DNA of 37,289 nucleotides from Alphaproteobacteria bacterium. GTDB lineage: Bacteria; Pseudomonadota; Alphaproteobacteria; Caulobacterales; Aquidulcibacteraceae. Position 1 is the stretch's first letter, and each line of letters opens with the position of its first letter. The position numbers and the translations under genes were made by a program. Below the pieces are notes generated by a model. That model did no database searches. It saw only the letters and a list, made by a program, of their open reading frames with translations, and was not told where the DNA came from. Location of the stretch: assembly GCA_018969015.1 (NCBI GenBank), contig JAGWZE010000034.1:1-37289 (forward strand). Direction: 5' to 3'. Below are positions 3,278-14,308 of this stretch, in pieces.

Positions 3278-4063
3278 ATGAGCGAGAAACCTTCCCTGGC
3301 GTCCCGGCTCGCCGACGAGGCGCGCGCCTTCCTGCGCGCCGGCCTCGTGTTTCTGCCGATCTGGATCGTGTTCAATACGGTCGGCTGGGCCCAGTACTCG
3401 ATCCCCTCCGAGAGCATGTCCCCGACGCTCGAAGTCGGCGACCGCGTGCTCGTGACCAAATGGGCCTACGGCTACAGCCGCTTCTCGGCGCCGATCGTGT
3501 GGCGGTTCATGCCGCCGGGCGAGGGGCGGGTTTTCGCGTCCGAGCCGCGCCGCGGCGACGTCGTGGTCTTCGCCCACCCGCGCGACGGACGCACGATGAT
3601 CAAGCGCCTGATCGGCCTGCCGGGCGACGTCATCGCCATGCAGGGCGGCAAACTCGTCGTCAACGGCGAGGCCGCCAGCTATGTCCGCGTGCGCGAAGTC
3701 GTTCGCCTGCCGCCCTCCGAGAAGAGCCTGTTCCGCGCCTACAACGCGGAAGAACAAGCCGAAACCATCGGCGGGCGCGAGCATCTCACGCTCGACATCG
3801 ACCCTGCGTCCCCCGGCGACCAGTGGGGCCCGATGGTGGTGCCGGAAGGCCACTTCCTGTTCATGGGCGACAACCGCGACAATTCGGACGATAGCCGGTT
3901 CCCCGACATGGGGTTTGTCTCCTACGAGCGGCTCATCGGCCGGGCGGAGACGGTCATCTTCGCACCGAGGGGCTGCGCCGCGTCTCCGGAAGTCAGCTGC
4001 TTCCGATCGCGGTTCCTGAAACCCTTGGCCCGCGAGGTCGGGACCGTCGGAGCGCCTTCATGA
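3278..4063 (+). CDS. lepB: Signal peptidase I
   Basis: A 261-residue inner-membrane serine protease that removes Sec and Tat signal peptides on the periplasmic side. One N-terminal membrane segment (residues about 21-38) is followed by the catalytic box SIPSESMSPTL with nucleophile Ser46. The Lys/Ser dyad partner is Lys109 in MIKRLIGLPGD, and the conserved box GDNRDNSDDSR begins at Gly197. All boxes are intact. The alphaproteobacterial form with a single N-terminal anchor fits the length. Its stop overlaps the start of the next gene (ATGA at 4060-4063), implying translational coupling. The many exported proteins in this window are potential substrates. Confidence 0.95.
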   Translation: MSEKPSLASRLADEARAFLRAGLVFLPIWIVFNTVGWAQYSIPSESMSPTLEVGDRVLVTKWAYGYSRFSAPIVWRFMPPGEGRVFASEPRRGDVVVFAHPRDGRTMIKRLIGLPGDVIAMQGGKLVVNGEAASYVRVREVVRLPPSEKSLFRAYNAEEQAETIGGREHLTLDIDPASPGDQWGPMVVPEGHFLFMGDNRDNSDDSRFPDMGFVSYERLIGRAETVIFAPRGCAASPEVSCFRSRFLKPLAREVGTVGAPS

Positions 4064-5040
4064 CAGATCGGATCACCTCGTCCTTCGGCGCGACCTCGAC
4101 GGCCAGGGATGTCGCCGCGGGGCACGATCTGCGCGGGCGCCGCATCGTCGTCACCGGCGCGGCCAGCGGCATCGGCGTCGAGACGGCGATCGCGCTGGCC
4201 GAGGCCGGCGCCGACGTGGTGATGGCCGTGCGCGACGTCCCCAAGGCCGAGGCGCTGGCCGCGCCGGTCAACGCGCGCCTTGCCGCGCCGCGCCTGTCGG
4301 CCCGCGCGCTCGATCTCTCCGACGCACGCTCGATCGCCAATTTCGCCGCCGCCGAACTCGAGACGGGCGAGCCGATCCACGTCCTGATCAACAATGCCGG
4401 CGTCATGGCCTCGCCGCTGTCCCGCGTCGGTCCGGGCTGGGAGGAGCAGTTCGGCGTCAATCACCTTGGCCACTTCCTGCTCACGGTGATGCTGCTGCCC
4501 GCGCTGGAAGCCGGCGCGGAGGAAACGCATCGCCCCTCGCGCGTCGTGTCGCTCAGCTCCATCGGCCATCGCCGCAGCGACGTGAACTTCGACGACCTGC
4601 ATTTCGAGCGCCGCCCCTACGACAAGTGGGAAGCCTACGGCCAGGCCAAGACCGCCAATTCGCTGTTCGCGGTGGGCCTCACGCGCAAGGCCGCCTCGCG
4701 CGGCGTCGTCGCCAACGCCGTGATGCCCGGCGGCATCATGACGGCGCTCCAGCGCCACCTGCCGAAAGCCGAGATGGTCGGCTATGGCTGGATCGACGAA
4801 GAGGGCCGTCCCAATCCGCGCATGAAGACGCCCGAGCAGGGCGCGGCGACGAGCGTGTGGGCCGCGATCGGCCCCGAACTCGAAGCGATCGGCGGCCTCT
4901 ATCTGGAAGACTGTGCGCAGGCCGAACCCTGGTCGCAGGACAAGCCCTGGAGCGGCGTGCTTCCCTATGCGCTGGATCCGGACAAAGCCGATCGGCTCTG
5001 GGCGGTCTCCGAAGAGCTCGTCGGCTTCAGCGCCGACTGA
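4060..5040 (+). CDS. Short-chain dehydrogenase/reductase (retinol-dehydrogenase-like)
   Basis: A 326-residue NAD(P)-dependent oxidoreductase with a Rossmann fold. The cofactor motif TGAASGIG starts at Thr32, NNAGVM follows near residue 110, the catalytic Ser lies in VVSLSSIGH (residues 166/167), and YGQAK gives Tyr193 and Lys197. The spacing and the stretch DVNFDDLHFE just before the catalytic Tyr are typical of the extended SDR group that includes retinol dehydrogenases and protochlorophyllide-reductase-like enzymes. The substrate is unknown. It overlaps lepB by 4 nt upstream, and its last 14 nt overlap the end of a convergent lipoprotein gene. The functional link to lepB is not obvious; co-transcription is likely. 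Confidence 0.9.
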   Translation: MTDRITSSFGATSTARDVAAGHDLRGRRIVVTGAASGIGVETAIALAEAGADVVMAVRDVPKAEALAAPVNARLAAPRLSARALDLSDARSIANFAAAELETGEPIHVLINNAGVMASPLSRVGPGWEEQFGVNHLGHFLLTVMLLPALEAGAEETHRPSRVVSLSSIGHRRSDVNFDDLHFERRPYDKWEAYGQAKTANSLFAVGLTRKAASRGVVANAVMPGGIMTALQRHLPKAEMVGYGWIDEEGRPNPRMKTPEQGAATSVWAAIGPELEAIGGLYLEDCAQAEPWSQDKPWSGVLPYALDPDKADRLWAVSEELVGFSAD

Positions 5041-7043: not shown

Positions 7044-7229
7044 GCCGCGCCGTGCGCCGCTGTCCGGGCGGCTCGCCTCGCCGGCGTGCGGCTTTGCGAC
7101 GCTCTCGTGATCGCCGCGCGCGGTTGGCCGGGAGCGGGCGGCCCGCTACATCCTCGGAAGCCACCCAAGGCGCGGCCGCGAACGCGCGGCCGGCCCGACG
7201 GCGTGTCGGATGGGGGGCGGAGGAGCCGC

Positions 7230-9422
7230 ATGCGCGCTGGGGTAGTCGAACCGATCACGCGGCGCGCCGCACGGGCCTGGTCGGCGGCGCTCGCCGCCGT
7301 GGCGCTGGGCGTCGCGGCGTTCGCGGCCCCGGCCACGCCCGCGGCGGCCGAACCCTTCCGCACCAAGAACGTCGAGGCCGAACTCCAGTCCTCGCGCCTG
7401 ACGGTCGCGCCCGGGGAAACCTTCCTCGTCGCCCTGCGCATGAAGGTCCGGCCCGAGTGGCACACCTACTGGCGCAACCCCGGCGATTCGGGCGCGGAGA
7501 CGACGCTCGACTGGTCGCTGCCGGCCGGGTTCAAGGCCGGCGACATCGTCTGGCCGACGCCAAAGCGCATGCCCGTCGGCCCGCTCGTGAACTACGGCTA
7601 CGACGGCGAAACGCTCTATCCCATCCGCATCACCGCGCCGAAAACGCTCGCGCCCGGCCAGCAGGCCAAGCTCGCCGCGGAAGGCGAATGGCTCGTCTGC
7701 AAGGACATCTGCATCTACGAGGGCGGCCTTCTCACGCTGACGATCACCGGCGCCGCGCCGGGCGCCGGCACGGATGATCCGGTATGGGCCGCGCGCATCG
7801 CCGCCGCCGAGGCCGCGGCCCCGAAGCCCGCCGACATCACCGCCCGCATCACCAAATCCGCCACGGGCGCGACGCTCACGGCGTCCGGCCCGGCGCTCGC
7901 GGGGCTCAAGCTCGGTTCGCCCTATTTCTTCCCGTATGACGGCGTCGCCATCGATCACGCGGCCAATCAGGCCCCGGTCGTGGGGCGCGACGGGCTGCGC
8001 CTCGATCTGAAATCCGGCACGTCCGGCGCGCTGGGAACGGCGCCGCTGCGGGGCGTTCTGGCCGCCGACGTCGCCACCGCGCAGGGCGTCGTGCGCGTGG
8101 GCTGGGAGATCGAAGCCAAGCCGGGCGACGCGCTCGCCACCGGCCCTGTGGTGGCGGGGCCGCCGCCCGCCGCCGCCAGCGGAACGGGCGCCGGCTCGGC
8201 CGCATCCGGCCCCGGCTCGGGCCTCACCTTCGGCGCGGCGCTCCTGTTCGCCTTCATCGGCGGCCTGATCCTCAACGTCATGCCCTGCGTGCTGCCGGTG
8301 CTTTCGATCAAGGCGCTCGGCCTCGCCGGCGGCGCCCACGCCAAGACCGCGCGGCGCGACGGCATGCTGTTCTTCGCCGGCGTGATGGTCACGTTCCTCG
8401 CGCTGGGGGGCGGCCTCGTCGCCCTGATGAGCGCGGGGATGGCCGCCGGCTGGGGTTTCCAGCTGCAGGAGCCGATGATCGTCGGCGCGCTGGCGATGCT
8501 GTTCTTCCTGATCGGTCTCAATCTGCTCGGCGCATTCGAGATCGGCGGCTCGGTGCAGAGCCTCGGCGGATCGCTCGTCGCGCGCGGGGGCGGCGTGGGC
8601 GCGTTCTTCACGGGCGCGCTGGCGGTCGTCGCCGCCGCGCCGTGCACCGCGCCGTTCATGGCCGGCGCGCTGGGCTTTGCGGTGACGCAGCCGCCCGCCG
8701 TCGCGCTGTCGGTATTCGCCGCCCTCGGGGCCGGGTTCGCGCTGCCGATGACGGCGCTGTCCTTCGCGCCCGCCATCCAGCGCCGCATTCCGCGTCCGGG
8801 CCCGTGGATGGACACCTTCAAGCAGGCGCTGGCGTTCCCGATGTTCGGCGCGGCGGTTTGGATGGCGTGGGTGCTCACCGCGCAGGCCGGCGCCTCGGGC
8901 GCGCTCGTGCTGCTCACGATCGCGACCGCGACCGGCTTCCTGGTGTGGACCATGAAGGCGTCCGCGGGCTGGCAGGGGCGGATCGTCGCGATGGCGCTCG
9001 CTTTGGCCGTCGTGGGCGGCGTCGCCTACGTGGCGCGGCCGCAATCGGTGGCGCTCGTCGCCGAACCCTGGAGCCCGGCGCGCGTCGAGGAGCTCACGGG
9101 GCAGGGCCGCACCGTGTTCGTCAACTTCACCGCCGACTGGTGCGTGACCTGCAAGGTCAACGAGCGCACGTCGCTCTCGAGCCCACGCGTCGCCGAGGCG
9201 TTCGCGGCCGGAAACGTCGCCTATCTCAAGGCGGACTGGACCGCGCGCGATGATGTGATCGCCGCCGCGCTGAAGGCGTATGGACGTCCGGGCGTGCCGC
9301 TTTATCTCGTCTTCCCGGGGAGTGGCGGCGCGCCGAAGGTGCTGCCGCAGACACTCACCGAAGACATCGTGATCGACGCGGTGCGCCCGTCTGGAGCGGC
9401 GCCGCGTCCGGCAGCGTCGTGA
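7230..9422 (+). CDS. dsbD: DsbD/ScsB-type transmembrane thiol:disulfide reductase
   Basis: A 730-residue membrane protein that carries electrons from cytoplasmic thioredoxin to periplasmic partners. After a signal peptide (cleavage near AAAEPF) comes a periplasmic DsbD N-terminal-like domain with a Cys pair C157-KDI-C161. An Ala/Gly-rich linker leads into about eight membrane segments (residues about 330-610) with the channel Cys residues C353 (NVMPCVLP) and C472 (AAPCTAP). A C-terminal thioredoxin-like domain carries C638-V-T-C641 in ADWCVTCK. All three redox pairs are therefore present. The start at 7230 is preceded by GGAGGAG (7219-7225). The long periplasmic domain (about 300 residues) suggests the ScsB-like branch rather than classical DsbD. 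An exported redoxin follows 7 nt downstream and is the likely partner. Confidence 0.9.
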   Translation: MRAGVVEPITRRAARAWSAALAAVALGVAAFAAPATPAAAEPFRTKNVEAELQSSRLTVAPGETFLVALRMKVRPEWHTYWRNPGDSGAETTLDWSLPAGFKAGDIVWPTPKRMPVGPLVNYGYDGETLYPIRITAPKTLAPGQQAKLAAEGEWLVCKDICIYEGGLLTLTITGAAPGAGTDDPVWAARIAAAEAAAPKPADITARITKSATGATLTASGPALAGLKLGSPYFFPYDGVAIDHAANQAPVVGRDGLRLDLKSGTSGALGTAPLRGVLAADVATAQGVVRVGWEIEAKPGDALATGPVVAGPPPAAASGTGAGSAASGPGSGLTFGAALLFAFIGGLILNVMPCVLPVLSIKALGLAGGAHAKTARRDGMLFFAGVMVTFLALGGGLVALMSAGMAAGWGFQLQEPMIVGALAMLFFLIGLNLLGAFEIGGSVQSLGGSLVARGGGVGAFFTGALAVVAAAPCTAPFMAGALGFAVTQPPAVALSVFAALGAGFALPMTALSFAPAIQRRIPRPGPWMDTFKQALAFPMFGAAVWMAWVLTAQAGASGALVLLTIATATGFLVWTMKASAGWQGRIVAMALALAVVGGVAYVARPQSVALVAEPWSPARVEELTGQGRTVFVNFTADWCVTCKVNERTSLSSPRVAEAFAAGNVAYLKADWTARDDVIAAALKAYGRPGVPLYLVFPGSGGAPKVLPQTLTEDIVIDAVRPSGAAPRPAAS

Positions 9423-9429
9423 GGACCTG

Positions 9430-10116
9430 ATGACGGGACGTTCGGCGGGAGTTCGGGGCGCAACGCGGGGGGCGCTGGTCTCGCGCCGCGCCCTGGGGAT
9501 CGCGGCCGGCGCGGCCGCCGCGCTCGCGCTCACGCTCGGCGCCTTGTCCTTCTCCGAGGACGCCGCCGCCGCCGTCGCCTCCGGCGGCAAGGCCCCCGCA
9601 TTCAGCGTCGTCGACGCGTCCGGCAAGACGCGCAGCCTCGCCGAGTTCGCCGGCAAGACGGTCGTCCTGGAATGGACGAACCACGAATGCCCGTTCGTGA
9701 AGAAGCACTACGACACCGGCAATATGCAGAAGCTGCAGAAGGCCGCCGCGGCCGATGGCGTCGTGTGGCTGTCGGTCGTGTCGTCCGCGCCCGGCAAGCA
9801 GGGCGCCGTCTCCGGGGCCGAGGCCGTCTCGCTCACCACGTCCCGGGGCGCCGCGCCGACCGCCGTGCTCCTCGACGCCAGCGGCGTCGTCGGCAAGGCC
9901 TACGGCGCGAAGACCACGCCGCACATGTTCGTCATCACCCCGAAGGGCGACATCGCCTATCAGGGCGCGATCGACGACACTCCCGCGCGTGAGCCGGAAA
10001 CGGTCAAGACGGCGAAGAACTACGTCACCGCCGCGCTCGCCGCGGTGAAGGCCGGCAAGGCGCCCGCCGTCACCGCGACGCAGCCGTACGGCTGCACGGT
10101 GAAGTACGCGAGCTGA
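9430..10116 (+). CDS. Exported redoxin / thioredoxin-like peroxiredoxin family protein
   Basis: A 228-residue protein with an N-terminal basic region and a hydrophobic segment (residues about 20-42), either a signal peptide or a membrane anchor, then an AhpC/TSA-like thioredoxin fold. The probable peroxidatic Cys is C87 in [12 protein letters not shown] second Cys, C222, lies at the C-terminus in YGCTVKY and may act as the resolving residue. The Thr/Pro loop TTPHMFVI is the usual cis-Pro element. GAGGA at 9421-9425 is the ribosome site; the gap to the DsbD-like gene is only 7 nt, so the two are surely co-transcribed. Known exported redoxins of this type get electrons from DsbD/ScsB partners; that pairing is inferred from context. 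Confidence 0.87.
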
Positions 10117-10162: not shown

Positions 10163-11650
10163 ATGAGTTCGCCCGCTTCCTCCGCCGAGTTCCGCCCCAA
10201 GGCGCGCCGTCCGCGCGGCTTCATGGACCGCCGCGGCGCGACGCTCGCGCAGGAACGCGCGATCGTCGACAAGGTCCTCGCCGTTTACCAAAGCTGGGGC
10301 TTCGAGCGCCTCGAGACGAGCGCGTTCGAGTATGCCGACGCGCTCGGCAAATTTTTGCCCGACCAGGACCGCCCCAACGAGGGCGTGTTCGCCCTGCAGG
10401 ACGACGACGAGCAGTGGATGGCGCTGCGCTACGACCTCACCGCGCCGCTCGCCCGCTTCGTCGCCGAAAACTACGACGCGCTCCCCAAGCCGTACCGTCG
10501 CTGCGCCGCCGGCCCGGTCTGGCGCAACGAAAAGCCGGGGCCGGGGCGCTTCCGCGAGTTCTGGCAGTGCGACGCCGACACCGTCGGCGCCGCCAGCCCC
10601 GCCGCCGACGCCGAGATGATCGCCATGGCCGGCGAAGCGCTCGAGGCGGCCGGTGTGCCGGCCGGCAAGTTCGCGCTGAAATACTCCAGCCGCCGCGCGC
10701 TCGATGGCGTGTTGCGTCTCGCCGGCGTTGCGGCCGACGACACCCGCACGCGCCTCACCGTGCTGCGCGCAATCGACAAGCTCGACCGCCTCGGCGCCGA
10801 TGGCGTGCGCGCGCTGCTGGGCGCCGGCCGCAAGGACGAGTCCGGCGACTTCACCCCCGGCGCCGGCCTCTCCGCCGCGCAGGCCGAAACCGTGCTCGGG
10901 TTCTTCGCCGCCAAGGACGCGCTCGCCGCGATGCGCGCCAACGAAGCCGCCTTCGCCGCCACGGGCGCGCTCGCCGAACTCGAACAGATCGCCGCCACGC
11001 TCGATCGCCTCGGCGCCGCCGGGTTTGCGCGCCTCGATCCCTCCATCGTGCGCGGCCTCGAGTACTACACGGGCGCCGTATTCGAAGCCGAGCTGCTGAT
11101 CGAGACCACCGACGAAGCCGGCCGCCCCGTGCGCTTCGGCTCCGTCGGCGGCGGCGGCCGCTATGACGATCTCGTCTCGCGCTTCAAGGGCCAGCCGATC
11201 CCCGCCACCGGCTTCTCGATCGGCGTCTCGCGCCTCGCCGCCGCGCTGGCGCACGCCGGCGCCGAAGCCGCGTTCGATGGCCCGATCGTCGTGCTGCCGT
11301 TCGACGCCGAGGCGATGGCCGAGTGCTTCGCCATCGCCCGCGAACTCCGCGTGCGCCTCGACCGTCCCGCCGAAGTTTATCTCGGCGGCTCCGGCCCCAA
11401 GGCGCAGCTCAAATACGCCGACAAGCGCGGCGCCCCCGTCGCCGTCATCATCGGAACCGACGAGCGCGCGGCCGGGCAGGCGACGGTGAAGGATCTCGTC
11501 CTCGGCGCCTCGCTCGCCGCCAAGGCCGGCGACGATCGCGAAGCCTACGCCGCCCTGCGCGAGAAGGTGCAGGTCACCGTGCCCCGCGCCGATCTCGTCG
11601 CGCAGGTCGCGCGCATGCTCGCCGCCCCGCACGCGGAGGGCGCCAGATGA
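10163..11650 (+). CDS. hisS: Histidine--tRNA ligase
   Basis: A 495-residue class II aminoacyl-tRNA synthetase that charges tRNA-His in the cytoplasm. Recognisable parts are the N-terminal PRGFMDRRG, motif 2 ([19 protein letters not shown]), the histidine-specific stretch [12 protein letters not shown], motif 3 region [12 protein letters not shown] with [10 protein letters not shown], and a C-terminal anticodon-binding domain. At 495 residues it is clearly longer than the E. coli enzyme (about 420) and matches the divergent alphaproteobacterial group. Its stop overlaps the next start (ATGA at 11647-11650). It leads a block that also holds hisZ and hisG, linking charging and synthesis of histidine. 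Confidence 0.95.
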
Positions 11651-12195
11651 TCCGCTTCCGGACGATCAGCGCCGCGCTCGCCGGCCTCGGCCTCGCCCTT
11701 GCCGCCGCCGCGCCGGCCCATGCCGCAATCGCCAGCGTCGCGCCGTCTGGCTTCACGAGCCAGATCACTGTCACCACCAAGGCCGATCCGGTGCGCGCCT
11801 GGCGCGCCTTCTTCAAGCCGCAGGACTGGTGGTCCGGCTCGCACACCTATTCGGGCGACGCGCGCAATCTGCGTATGGATCCCCGGGCCGGCGGCTGCTT
11901 CTGCGAGCGCCTCCCGCGCGACGGCGCCGTCAAGCACGGCGAAGTCGTGCTCGTCATCCCAGATCGCACGATCCGTCTCTCCGCGCCGCTCGGCCCGCTG
12001 CAGGAAATGGCCGCGACGGCGGCGTGGACCGTGCAGATCGCCGGAGCGGAAGGCGGCGGCGCCACGATCACCTGGACCTACGTCGTCACCGGCGCCGATC
12101 CGGAAGGCTGGGCCACGCTCTCGAAGGCCGTCGATTCCGTCATGCAGGAGCAGGCGCAGCGCTTCGCCGCCTACGTGGACGCGCCGCGCAAATGA
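11647..12195 (+). CDS. Exported SRPBCC (START/Bet v 1-like) domain protein
   Basis: A 182-residue protein. Residues 1-26 form a clear signal peptide ending AHA. The rest fits the SRPBCC hydrophobic-pocket fold as seen in AHSA1/polyketide-cyclase-like proteins: [16 protein letters not shown] at the N-side, a central beta sheet, TWTYVVTG, and a long C-terminal helix ([14 protein letters not shown]). Such proteins bind hydrophobic ligands; most are cytoplasmic, so export is unusual. It is locked into the his block by 4-nt overlaps at both ends (with hisS at 11647-11650 and hisZ at 12192-12195). A role in histidine metabolism is not evident; ligand and function are unknown. Confidence 0.8.
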
Positions 12196-13349
12196 CGAGC
12201 GCCGCCACCCCCCAACGCCAAGCGATCGACCGTGTCGACGCCGCCGCCGCCGCCGTGCGCGCCGCCATCGCGCGCCACGGCCCCGGCGCCGCAACGGCGG
12301 ACATCCTCCAGCCCGCCGGCCTCTATCTCGAACTGCTCGGCGAGGACATCCGCGCGCGCGCCTTCACGCTGACCGGGCCCGACGGCGGCGAATGGTGCCT
12401 GCGTCCCGACATGACCGCGCCGATCGTGCGCGACGTGCTCGCCGCCGCGCCGGCGGGGCAGGCCGCGGCCGCTTATGACGGCCTCGTCTTCCGCCGCCAG
12501 GCCCGCGGCTCGACGCGCGAAACCGAGTTCCGCGTCGTCGGCATGGAGGTGCTCGCGCCCGCCGCCTTCACTCCGGAGGCCGAAGCCGATCTCGTCGCGA
12601 CCGCGCTCGAGGCCGCGCGCAGCGCCGGCGTGACGCCGCGCCTGAAGCTCGGCGACATCGCGCTCGCCCGCGCGGTCATCGCCGCCGTCGGCCTCGCGCC
12701 GGCCTGGGAAGCCCGCATCCAGCGCGCCTTCGCCCGCACGGGCGCGCCCGGCGCCGTGCTCGGCGAGGCCGAAGCCGGCGCCCGCGACGGAGACGCCGTG
12801 GGCGAAGCCATCGCCGCGCTTCCGGCAGACCGCGCCGCCGCCGTCGTCGATGCGCTGCTCGTGCGCAGCGGCGCGCCGATGGTCGGCGGCCGCACCGCCG
12901 CGGACGTGGCCCGCCGCCTCACCGCGAAATCCGATCTCGCCCGCGCCGATCGTCCGCATCCGGATCAGATCGCACGCATCCGCGCCGCGCTTGCCGTCGA
13001 GGCCGCGCCGGCCGCCGCCTTCGAGCAGCTCGCCGGCGCGATGCCGTCGCTCGGCCCCGCGCTCGAAACCGCCGCGGCCCGCTGGCGCGCGCTCTCCGCC
13101 CATGTCGGCGCCGGCGTCGAGGTCGCGTTCTCCGCCGGCTTCGGCCGCGGCCCCGCCTACTACGACGGGTTCGTGTTCGAGCTCGAGGCGCCCGCGCTCG
13201 GCGAACGCGCCGCGCTCGGCGGCGGCGGCCGCTACGACGATCTCTTGCGCCGGCTCGCCGCGGGCGACGCCGTCCACGCCGACTGGCGCGCGATGGGCTT
13301 CTCGCTGCGCCCGCTGCGCCTCGCCGACGCCGCGGAGCCTGCCCGATGA
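12192..13349 (+). CDS. hisZ: ATP phosphoribosyltransferase regulatory subunit
   Basis: A 385-residue catalytically inactive HisRS paralogue that joins HisG to control the first step of histidine synthesis. It keeps the class II synthetase core (LRPDMTAPIVRD, VFRRQARGSTRETEF and the C-terminal [13 protein letters not shown]) but lacks the anticodon-binding domain. The expected HisRS sequence RGLEYYTG is changed to RGPAYYDG, as in HisZ proteins. It overlaps both neighbours by 4 nt (12192-12195 and 13346-13349). Placement directly before hisG is the standard arrangement. Calling it HisZ rather than a second HisRS rests on its length and on hisG being next. Confidence 0.92.
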   Translation: MTSAATPQRQAIDRVDAAAAAVRAAIARHGPGAATADILQPAGLYLELLGEDIRARAFTLTGPDGGEWCLRPDMTAPIVRDVLAAAPAGQAAAAYDGLVFRRQARGSTRETEFRVVGMEVLAPAAFTPEAEADLVATALEAARSAGVTPRLKLGDIALARAVIAAVGLAPAWEARIQRAFARTGAPGAVLGEAEAGARDGDAVGEAIAALPADRAAAVVDALLVRSGAPMVGGRTAADVARRLTAKSDLARADRPHPDQIARIRAALAVEAAPAAAFEQLAGAMPSLGPALETAAARWRALSAHVGAGVEVAFSAGFGRGPAYYDGFVFELEAPALGERAALGGGGRYDDLLRRLAAGDAVHADWRAMGFSLRPLRLADAAEPAR

Positions 13350-14308
13350 CCGCGCTCGTTCTCGCCATTCCCTCCAAAGGCCGTCTGCAGGAACAGACGA
13401 ACGCCTTCTTCGCCGATTGCGGCCTCGCCCTCGCCACGCAGGGCGGGGCGCGCGGCTACACGGCCCGCATCGCCGCGGCGCCGGACGTGGAGGTGCGGCT
13501 TCTCTCCGCCTCCGATATCGCCCGCGCCATCGTCGAGGGCGACGTGCATGTGGGCGTCACTGGCGAGGACGTGCTGCGCGAAGCCGCCGGCGGTCTGGAC
13601 ACGCCGATCCTCGTCAAGCCGCTCGGCTTCGGCCGCGCCGATCTCGTCGTCGCCGCGCCGTCGTCCTGGCTGGACGTGACGACGATGGCCGATCTCGCCG
13701 ACGTCTGCGCCGAGCATCGCGCCCGCACCGGCAAGCGCCTGCGCGTCGCCACCAAGTACCTCGTGCACACGCGCGCCTTCTTCGAGGCGCACGGCATCGA
13801 CGACTACCGCATCGTCGAAAGCCTGGGCGCGACCGAAGGCGCGCCCGCGGCCGGCACGGCGGAAGTGATCGTCGACATCACCACCACCGGCGCCACGCTC
13901 GCGGCCAACCACCTCACGCCGCTCGCCGATGGTCTCATCCTGCGAAGCCAGGCCCATCTGGCCGCCAGCCGCGCAGCGTCCTGGGGCGCCGCGGCGCTGG
14001 CCACCTTCGAACGGGTTCTGGACGCCATCGAGGCCCGCGGCCGCGCCAAGCGCGTGCGCCTCGTGCGCGCCGCGCTCGACGCCAGCCGCCGCGGGGACGT
14101 CGACACGCGGCTCGCCGCGCTTGGCTGCACGCCTGCGGGAGACGCCGCGCCGATGAGTGCGTGGTACTGCCCTGCCGAGCAGGTTTTCACCGCCTGTCGG
14201 ACGATCCAGGAGGCTGGCGGCGCCGCCGGCGTGTTCGAGCCCGACTATGTCTTCCAGCAGCCCAATCTGGCCTTCGAAGCATTCACAACAGCGCTGAACG
14301 GCGCTTGA
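13346..14308 (+). CDS. hisG: ATP phosphoribosyltransferase catalytic subunit
   Basis: A 320-residue enzyme that joins ATP and PRPP to form phosphoribosyl-ATP, the first and feedback-controlled step of histidine synthesis. The start LAIPSKGRLQEQ, the segment DVHVGVTGEDVLRE, and the PRPP-binding stretch EVIVDITTTGATLAANHL are all present. It is much longer than HisZ-dependent short HisG proteins (about 200-230 residues); the extra C-terminal 90 residues contain Cys-bearing YCPAEQVFTACR and do not obviously resemble the ACT-like regulatory domain of long HisG. The gene overlaps hisZ by 4 nt and ends the block; an intrinsic terminator lies about 125 nt downstream. Confidence 0.93.
   Translation: MTALVLAIPSKGRLQEQTNAFFADCGLALATQGGARGYTARIAAAPDVEVRLLSASDIARAIVEGDVHVGVTGEDVLREAAGGLDTPILVKPLGFGRADLVVAAPSSWLDVTTMADLADVCAEHRARTGKRLRVATKYLVHTRAFFEAHGIDDYRIVESLGATEGAPAAGTAEVIVDITTTGATLAANHLTPLADGLILRSQAHLAASRAASWGAAALATFERVLDAIEARGRAKRVRLVRAALDASRRGDVDTRLAALGCTPAGDAAPMSAWYCPAEQVFTACRTIQEAGGAAGVFEPDYVFQQPNLAFEAFTTALNGA

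Follow-up and report, generated by a model that had tools for sequence, protein, structure and literature searches.

A predicted exported SRPBCC protein encoded between hisS and hisZ, with probably no specific part in histidine synthesis

The window considered here is the whole stretch of 37,289 nucleotides analysed, from an alphaproteobacterial assembly (GCA_018969015.1, contig JAGWZE010000034.1). It carries hisS, a gene for a predicted exported protein of the SRPBCC superfamily, hisZ and hisG in the same orientation, preceded by genes for a DsbD-like protein and a redoxin (Table 1). An earlier note on this DNA had described the SRPBCC gene as overlapping both of its neighbours, and this description of the two junctions is correct. 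Such ATGA overlaps are ordinary in the window. Another one joins hisZ and hisG (13346-13349), and the open reading frames 3278-4063 and 4060-5040 overlap in the same manner. Within hisS, the SRPBCC gene has a likely ribosome-binding site, and no similar stretch was evident ahead of hisZ when the window sequence was read. Because no ribosome-binding site is visible before hisZ, translation of hisZ is suggested to depend on the SRPBCC gene, to which it would probably be coupled through the ATGA overlap. Further upstream, DsbD was observed ahead of hisS in seven of the eight family loci read further out, and redoxin in five of the eight, with the SRPBCC insert present or absent.

Table 1. Features of the hisS-hisZ region, with positions in the window.
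Feature	Position	Strand	Basis
DsbD-like gene (7086-9422) and redoxin gene (9430-10116), upstream of hisS	7086..10116	+	profile matches, locus comparison
hisS	10163..11650	+	TIGR00442, 359.9 bits, above cut-off
GGAGGG within hisS, probable ribosome-binding site (SRPBCC gene)	11635..11640	+	read from sequence
ATGA overlap, hisS stop / SRPBCC start	11647..11650	+	window sequence
SRPBCC (AHSA1-like) protein, predicted exported, 182 aa	11647..12195	+	ORF, Pfam, homologue profile matches, AlphaFold2 fold
Predicted Sec signal peptide, residues 1-26, cleavage after AHA	11647..11724	+	sequence, rule-based check on homologues, low pLDDT over roughly the first 25 residues
C84-x-C86 codons of the GGCxCE motif, predicted strand 84-89	11896..11904	+	both Cys in 88 of 95 distinct homologues
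ATGA overlap, SRPBCC stop / hisZ start	12192..12195	+	window sequence
hisZ	12192..13349	+	NF008953, 221.5 bits, below its cut-off; best NCBIfam models all HisZ
hisG	13346..14308	+	TIGR00070, 164 bits, above cut-off

In the translation of the window, the frame of the SRPBCC gene is intact and has no internal stop. The Pfam model PF10604 gives 26.3 bits with the encoded protein, for a curated cut-off of 27.4. It matches 51 of 60 aligned members of the family at E<=0.01 (best 9e-12), and AHSA1 (PF08327) matches 15 of the 60 at the same threshold. No NCBIfam model matched the window protein, a sequence search of solved structures returned chance-level or weak matches only (TxnO9, E 0.023), and the best match for a paralogue in the genome itself merely reached E 0.134. 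The AlphaFold2 model, built from 60 sequences, has a pLDDT of 90.9 and a predicted helix-grip fold. Solved AHSA1/START folds were matched to this model with Z up to 15.2 (3q64, 138 residues, rmsd 3.0), and 3put (Z 14.6) and the Aha1 structure 8z3h (Z 14.1) were among the other matches. Invariant residues are kept in the family though identity to relatives is just 32-46%, a conservation that would make the open reading frame more than a chance one. As judged from the modelled structure, the gene encodes a protein of the SRPBCC superfamily, of the AHSA1/Polyketide_cyc2 type, with a known fold. The helix-grip fold is common to the window protein and to this type (PF08327, PF10604; 3q64, 3put). 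Unlike those examples, the family has a predicted signal peptide and motifs of its own, WWxxHTYSG, GGCxCE and GPLQ, and would thus represent an exported variant within a known fold class.

The N-terminus has a signal of the Sec type, with neither an RR pair nor a lipobox. A home-made rule, requiring a hydrophobic stretch, an A-x-A motif and a non-negative n-region, scored as exported 93 of the 95 distinct homologues (101 of 103 with copies included). These 95 correspond to 104 homologues minus nine second copies of a contig. Six of 110 homologue loci have no clear start and stand outside the homologue counts and the tree discussed below; one of them, L020, is also devoid of the CxC pair. Export of the SRPBCC protein via Sec is predicted on these grounds. 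The claim of an exported SRPBCC protein is thereby borne out at the level of prediction, by the signal peptide on the one hand and by the AHSA1-like fold on the other.

W61, W62, H66, S69, E87, H97 and G116-P117-L118 are invariant in the family. For the residues of the pattern WW..HT[YW]S, invariance within the best 80 of 241 relatives (see below) arises because these 80 were chosen by that very pattern. W61, W62, H66 and S69 are invariant also in 28 distinct loci chosen by overall similarity. Alignment A2 leaves out 17 of the 80 named loci, in which the open reading frame exceeds 200 aa, and four that have no start. The CxC pair shows seven exceptions among the 95 distinct homologues, six without both cysteines and one without one of them. 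Taken together, the invariant residues and the CxC pair suggest that the protein has a specific site. It may be envisaged that C84-x-C86 builds a metal or redox site together with H66, E87 and H97, and that the protein is a metal- or thiol-active component of the envelope. The high conservation of the pair and its loss as a pair in six of the seven exceptions would fit such a role, as would the presence of DsbD and redoxin upstream of hisS and the absence of both CxC and redoxin from one genome, G020. However, G020 is the single concordant case, because the CxC-less genomes G045, G048, G049 and G060 have redoxin and the CxC-bearing genomes G006, G007, G014, G018 and G058 are without it (G006 and G007 being 85-87% complete). 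Moreover, the order DsbD-redoxin-hisS also exists without the SRPBCC gene. A metal- or thiol-active protein is therefore rather unlikely. The redoxin was also considered as a redox partner of the CxC pair and was rejected, as the two are not co-distributed apart from G020.

The gene was detected in 39 of the 61 genomes searched, that is, the genome of the window and 60 relatives. In 60 genomes of the family, it occurs in 47 and hisZ in 27, the latter at E<=1e-8, a threshold at which a diverged hisZ could be missed. Both genes are present in 20 of these genomes, hisZ alone in seven, the SRPBCC gene alone in 27 and neither in six. Thus, 20 of 27 genomes with hisZ carry the SRPBCC gene versus 27 of 33 without hisZ, which corresponds to no association (p 0.54). 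In the largest genus (g12), a hisZ match was obtained in one member, G063 (1.4e-74), and none in the other 29 of 30 at E<=1e-8. The SRPBCC gene adjoins hisZ in three of the 60 family genomes, those of the window, G008 and G020, which belong to two genera. In the other 44 of the 47 carriers it is not beside hisZ, and no hisZ was detected in 27 of the 47.

A survey of hisS-hisZ-hisG loci in relatives had been proposed in the earlier note. It covered 30 hisZ loci, drawn from 30 of 38 relatives that gave a match. The order of the his genes proved conserved, with hisS upstream of hisZ in 30 of 30 loci and hisG downstream in 29 of 30, the locus without hisG ending at a contig end, whereas the SRPBCC gene lies between hisS and hisZ in just three of the 30. 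In the insert-free genomes G015 and G063, hisS and hisZ overlap directly by ATGA; therefore, the insert most likely arrived between two genes that were already coupled. G015 is one of the three genomes of the second genus, together with G008 and G020, and has no insert at hisS-hisZ. The earlier note had considered that confinement of the insertion to one strain or genus would make a link with histidine metabolism unlikely. The actual distribution comes close to this, with three genomes in two genera and one member of the second genus devoid of the gene at this place.

Comparison of the junctions and of the proteins bears on the origin of the insert. At the left junction, the window has the ATGA overlap, whereas the two genes are separated by 19 nt in G008 and by 6 or 9 nt in G020, depending on which of two possible starts is used, and both gaps contain a purine-rich stretch. 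The right junction to hisZ is always a four-base overlap, ATGA in the window, GTGA and ATGA in the two further genomes. In the protein tree, the three hisS-hisZ copies are united in 0% of 200 bootstrap trees. The window copy groups with Brevundimonas copies (87/90) and those of G008 and G020 pair up elsewhere (94/94). A single clade of the three copies is not rejected (p-AU 0.419), the gene being short and the branches long. From these sequences, the insert would have either one origin or two independent arrivals. A phage or plasmid origin of the gene was considered and rejected, as no match was obtained among 50,697 phage records at E<=1e-3 and a single one among 72,556 plasmid records, where the gene stands behind secY-adk. 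The placement in the his operon looks like a local relocation, not like a histidine function.

Could the protein nevertheless sense or regulate histidine, or the activity of HisZ or HisG, from the envelope? This idea would gain from the close overlap with each neighbour in the window and from the four-base overlap with hisZ in G008 and G020, and also from two arrivals at one junction, which the tree makes possible. However, one clade of the three copies is compatible with the data as well, most carriers have the gene away from hisZ or have no detectable hisZ at all, and the SRPBCC protein is predicted to be exported while HisS, HisZ and HisG are cytoplasmic enzymes. Such a sensing or regulating role is highly improbable, and the histidine reading of the gene is very likely wrong. 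The SRPBCC gene as a component of the histidine operon was accordingly rejected, in view of a linkage seen in three of 47 carriers and of the lack of co-occurrence with hisZ. Hence, the earlier statement that the gene has no obvious role in histidine metabolism stands, and a functional link with this metabolism finds no support.

Other genomic homes of the family were sought in genome contigs. A scan with the single protein gave no match, and a scan with a profile made from an alignment gave 241 relatives, belonging by record title to Alpha- and Gammaproteobacteria, Acidobacteria, Planctomycetes and others. Among the best 80 of these 241, the gene is associated with adk or rpsM in 31 cases (24 with adk upstream and rpsM downstream, 5 with adk alone and 2 with rpsM alone), mostly in Sphingomonadales by title. 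It lies behind murI in 14 others, from Caulobacterales by title, and an OmpA-type glycine-zipper gene is located downstream of it in 12. Three have a TetR neighbour, one (L045, the contig of G020) corresponds to hisS-hisZ, and 19 show none of these homes. The names of the neighbours are a reading of translated open reading frames, except for the annotated record of Sphingopyxis indica, in which rplO-secY-adk is followed by the SRPBCC gene, labelled 'hypothetical protein'. The family has lineage-specific homes, often adjoining constitutive genes. As a side observation, locus L150 (NZ_CP076395.1 270492-280905) has a spc-type cluster of ribosomal genes, rplF to secY-adk, annotated on a conjugative 'plasmid' of 404 kb in Sphingopyxis indica. 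This element would be a secondary chromosome, unless the arrangement arose during assembly.

These neighbourhoods also bear on the possibility that the protein is a periplasmic chaperone escorting an exported client. A precedent is CpaB of Acinetobacter, described as a chaperone with an SRPBCC domain that is mostly periplasmic and serves a type II secretion substrate; its model has a membrane segment at the N-terminus, and its client CpaA is encoded next door (PMC4713064). The likeness resides in an SRPBCC domain on the periplasmic side, which is predicted here. The AHSA1 matches within the family and the presence of an Aha1 structure among the fold matches point in the same direction. However, where CpaB is described with a membrane segment and an adjacent client, the window family has a cleavable-type signal and no constant neighbour. 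The genes next to it are hisS and hisZ in the window and other housekeeping genes in many relatives, and no constant client gene adjoins it across the lineages examined. In addition, its co-distribution with a TetR regulator of the LmrA/YxaF type, described below, suggests a small-molecule signal. A chaperone role seems doubtful.

The clue to regulation comes from two related genera. There, a palindrome, TTGA-N8-TCAA, is found within 150 nt upstream of the SRPBCC gene in four of four and seven of 12 distinct loci, respectively. This pattern was defined after inspection of upstream sequences. It was found in 0 of 79 other loci, including the three hisS-hisZ loci, and members from Sphingomonadales and Brevundimonas have no such palindrome upstream of the gene. 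Genome-wide, forward sites number 4 in G032, 4 in G017, 3 in G036, 3 in G025, 1 in G022 and 0 in the genome of the window, for 2, 1, 1, 0, 3 and 0 sites of a reversed control pattern in the same genomes. These counts are near background, and it is the position just upstream of the SRPBCC gene that stands out, not the number. An additional palindrome exists in four of five site-bearing relatives, either ahead of a TetR gene (G036, G025) or ahead of a second exported SRPBCC gene and the TetR gene (G032, G017).

The palindrome follows the presence of this TetR, whose C-terminal domain is LmrA/YxaF-like, with matches to PF21993 and PF16925 above cut-off. The regulator occurs at >=75% identity in 10 of the 61 genomes, three more having a best match of merely 23-30%. 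Among the 30 of 39 carriers with available loci, the palindrome is present in nine of 10 with TetR versus none of 20 without it. In the larger genus, it is present in 14 of 18 genomes with TetR versus none of seven without (p 0.0007), and in the 12 genomes of this genus with upstream DNA new to the analysis the figures are six of seven and none of five. Because the genomes are related, such p values overstate independence. Four genomes of the larger genus have TetR and no palindrome just ahead of the SRPBCC gene. In G069, the contig ends and 22 nt are left upstream; in G074, TetR and SRPBCC genes form a pair with the palindrome ahead of TetR (read in L108); in G076, the SRPBCC copy is matched in two frame-shifted pieces; and in G017, the site lies ahead of the second SRPBCC gene and TetR. 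G066 and G072, which are incomplete (57% and 79%), have TetR and no SRPBCC match.

TetR adjoins the SRPBCC gene in three of the best 80 loci (of 241), one being that of an acidobacterium in which TetR (45% identical), the SRPBCC gene and a second exported SRPBCC gene (31% identical to P0003) stand in a row. The exact TTGA-N8-TCAA sequence was not found in this acidobacterial locus. The scope of the TetR link is thus two genera plus one acidobacterium. An SRPBCC unit with both the palindrome and TetR is seen in the two related genera and not in the genome of the window, which has 0 palindrome sites and no TetR match at E<=1e-15. P0003, the second exported SRPBCC protein, gave a match at E<=1e-10 in five of the 61 genomes, including four TetR-containing genomes of one genus. 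Since it occurs in merely five of 61, it is not an obligate partner. This second protein, of the AHSA1 type, is encoded beside the same TetR in one genus and in the acidobacterium (L152 1531-2121; L155 1606-2091; L041 5587-6232).

Considering these observations, it is reasonably probable that the protein is a periplasmic binder of a hydrophobic compound, TetR-controlled elsewhere and carried here in a constitutive operon, with no specific part in histidine synthesis. An SRPBCC fold with a cleavable-type signal most likely means a hydrophobic molecule bound in the periplasm. With its predicted Sec signal directing it to the periplasm, the protein would most likely have a small hydrophobic ligand in the envelope. 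In the two related genera, the LmrA/YxaF-type TetR appears to repress the gene via the palindrome; this TetR type senses small molecules, and its involvement therefore fits a response to a hydrophobic compound that is toxic or acts as a signal. In the lineage of the window, TetR control would have been lost or never present, and the gene would presumably be read constitutively with the his operon, with hisZ translation probably coupled to it. Overlap with each neighbour would also be compatible with selection for an output matched to HisS and HisZ.

A wider scenario may be imagined, although it is distinctly more speculative. A so far uncharacterised family, made of exported SRPBCC proteins with a coupled CxC pair and joined in some lineages by a second exported SRPBCC protein and TetR, would help the envelope respond to a compound that is hydrophobic or reactive. 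On several occasions it would have escaped its repressor, or managed without it, by settling in constitutive clusters of essential genes (hisS-hisZ, adk-rpsM, behind murI). If true, in such lineages the protein would act permanently as a house-keeping binder of the envelope.

LmrA/YxaF repressors are known to act on genes for transport or for oxidoreductases. The TetR co-distributed with the palindrome belongs to this type (PF21993, PF16925), and its putative targets are genes of exported SRPBCC proteins. An SRPBCC protein tied to envelope lipids is AhfA (Cgp_0475) of Corynebacterium, which is described as required for mycolic acids, as a DUF2505 protein with a predicted hydrophobic pocket and as almost exclusively actinobacterial (PMC9671496). 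The window family is set beside AhfA by that description, and differs from it in that AhfA is a DUF2505 protein nearly restricted to actinobacteria. In open-licence PMC text, no paper on the SRPBCC family or on its place by hisZ was among the matches listed. The present analysis takes away an attractive idea that is probably wrong, that of a histidine sensor in the envelope, and offers a testable lead instead, a widespread exported SRPBCC family whose inducer might be traced through its TetR. It also recalls that tight operon overlap on two sides need not imply common function.

Finally, variant palindromes with a TTGACCG half-site were observed at matching places in two genomes (L161, L163, L164, L165). 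By eye, the open reading frames beside them resemble genes for an acyl-CoA ligase, an acyl-CoA dehydrogenase and a thiolase. Palindromes of this type perhaps mark a related TetR regulon.
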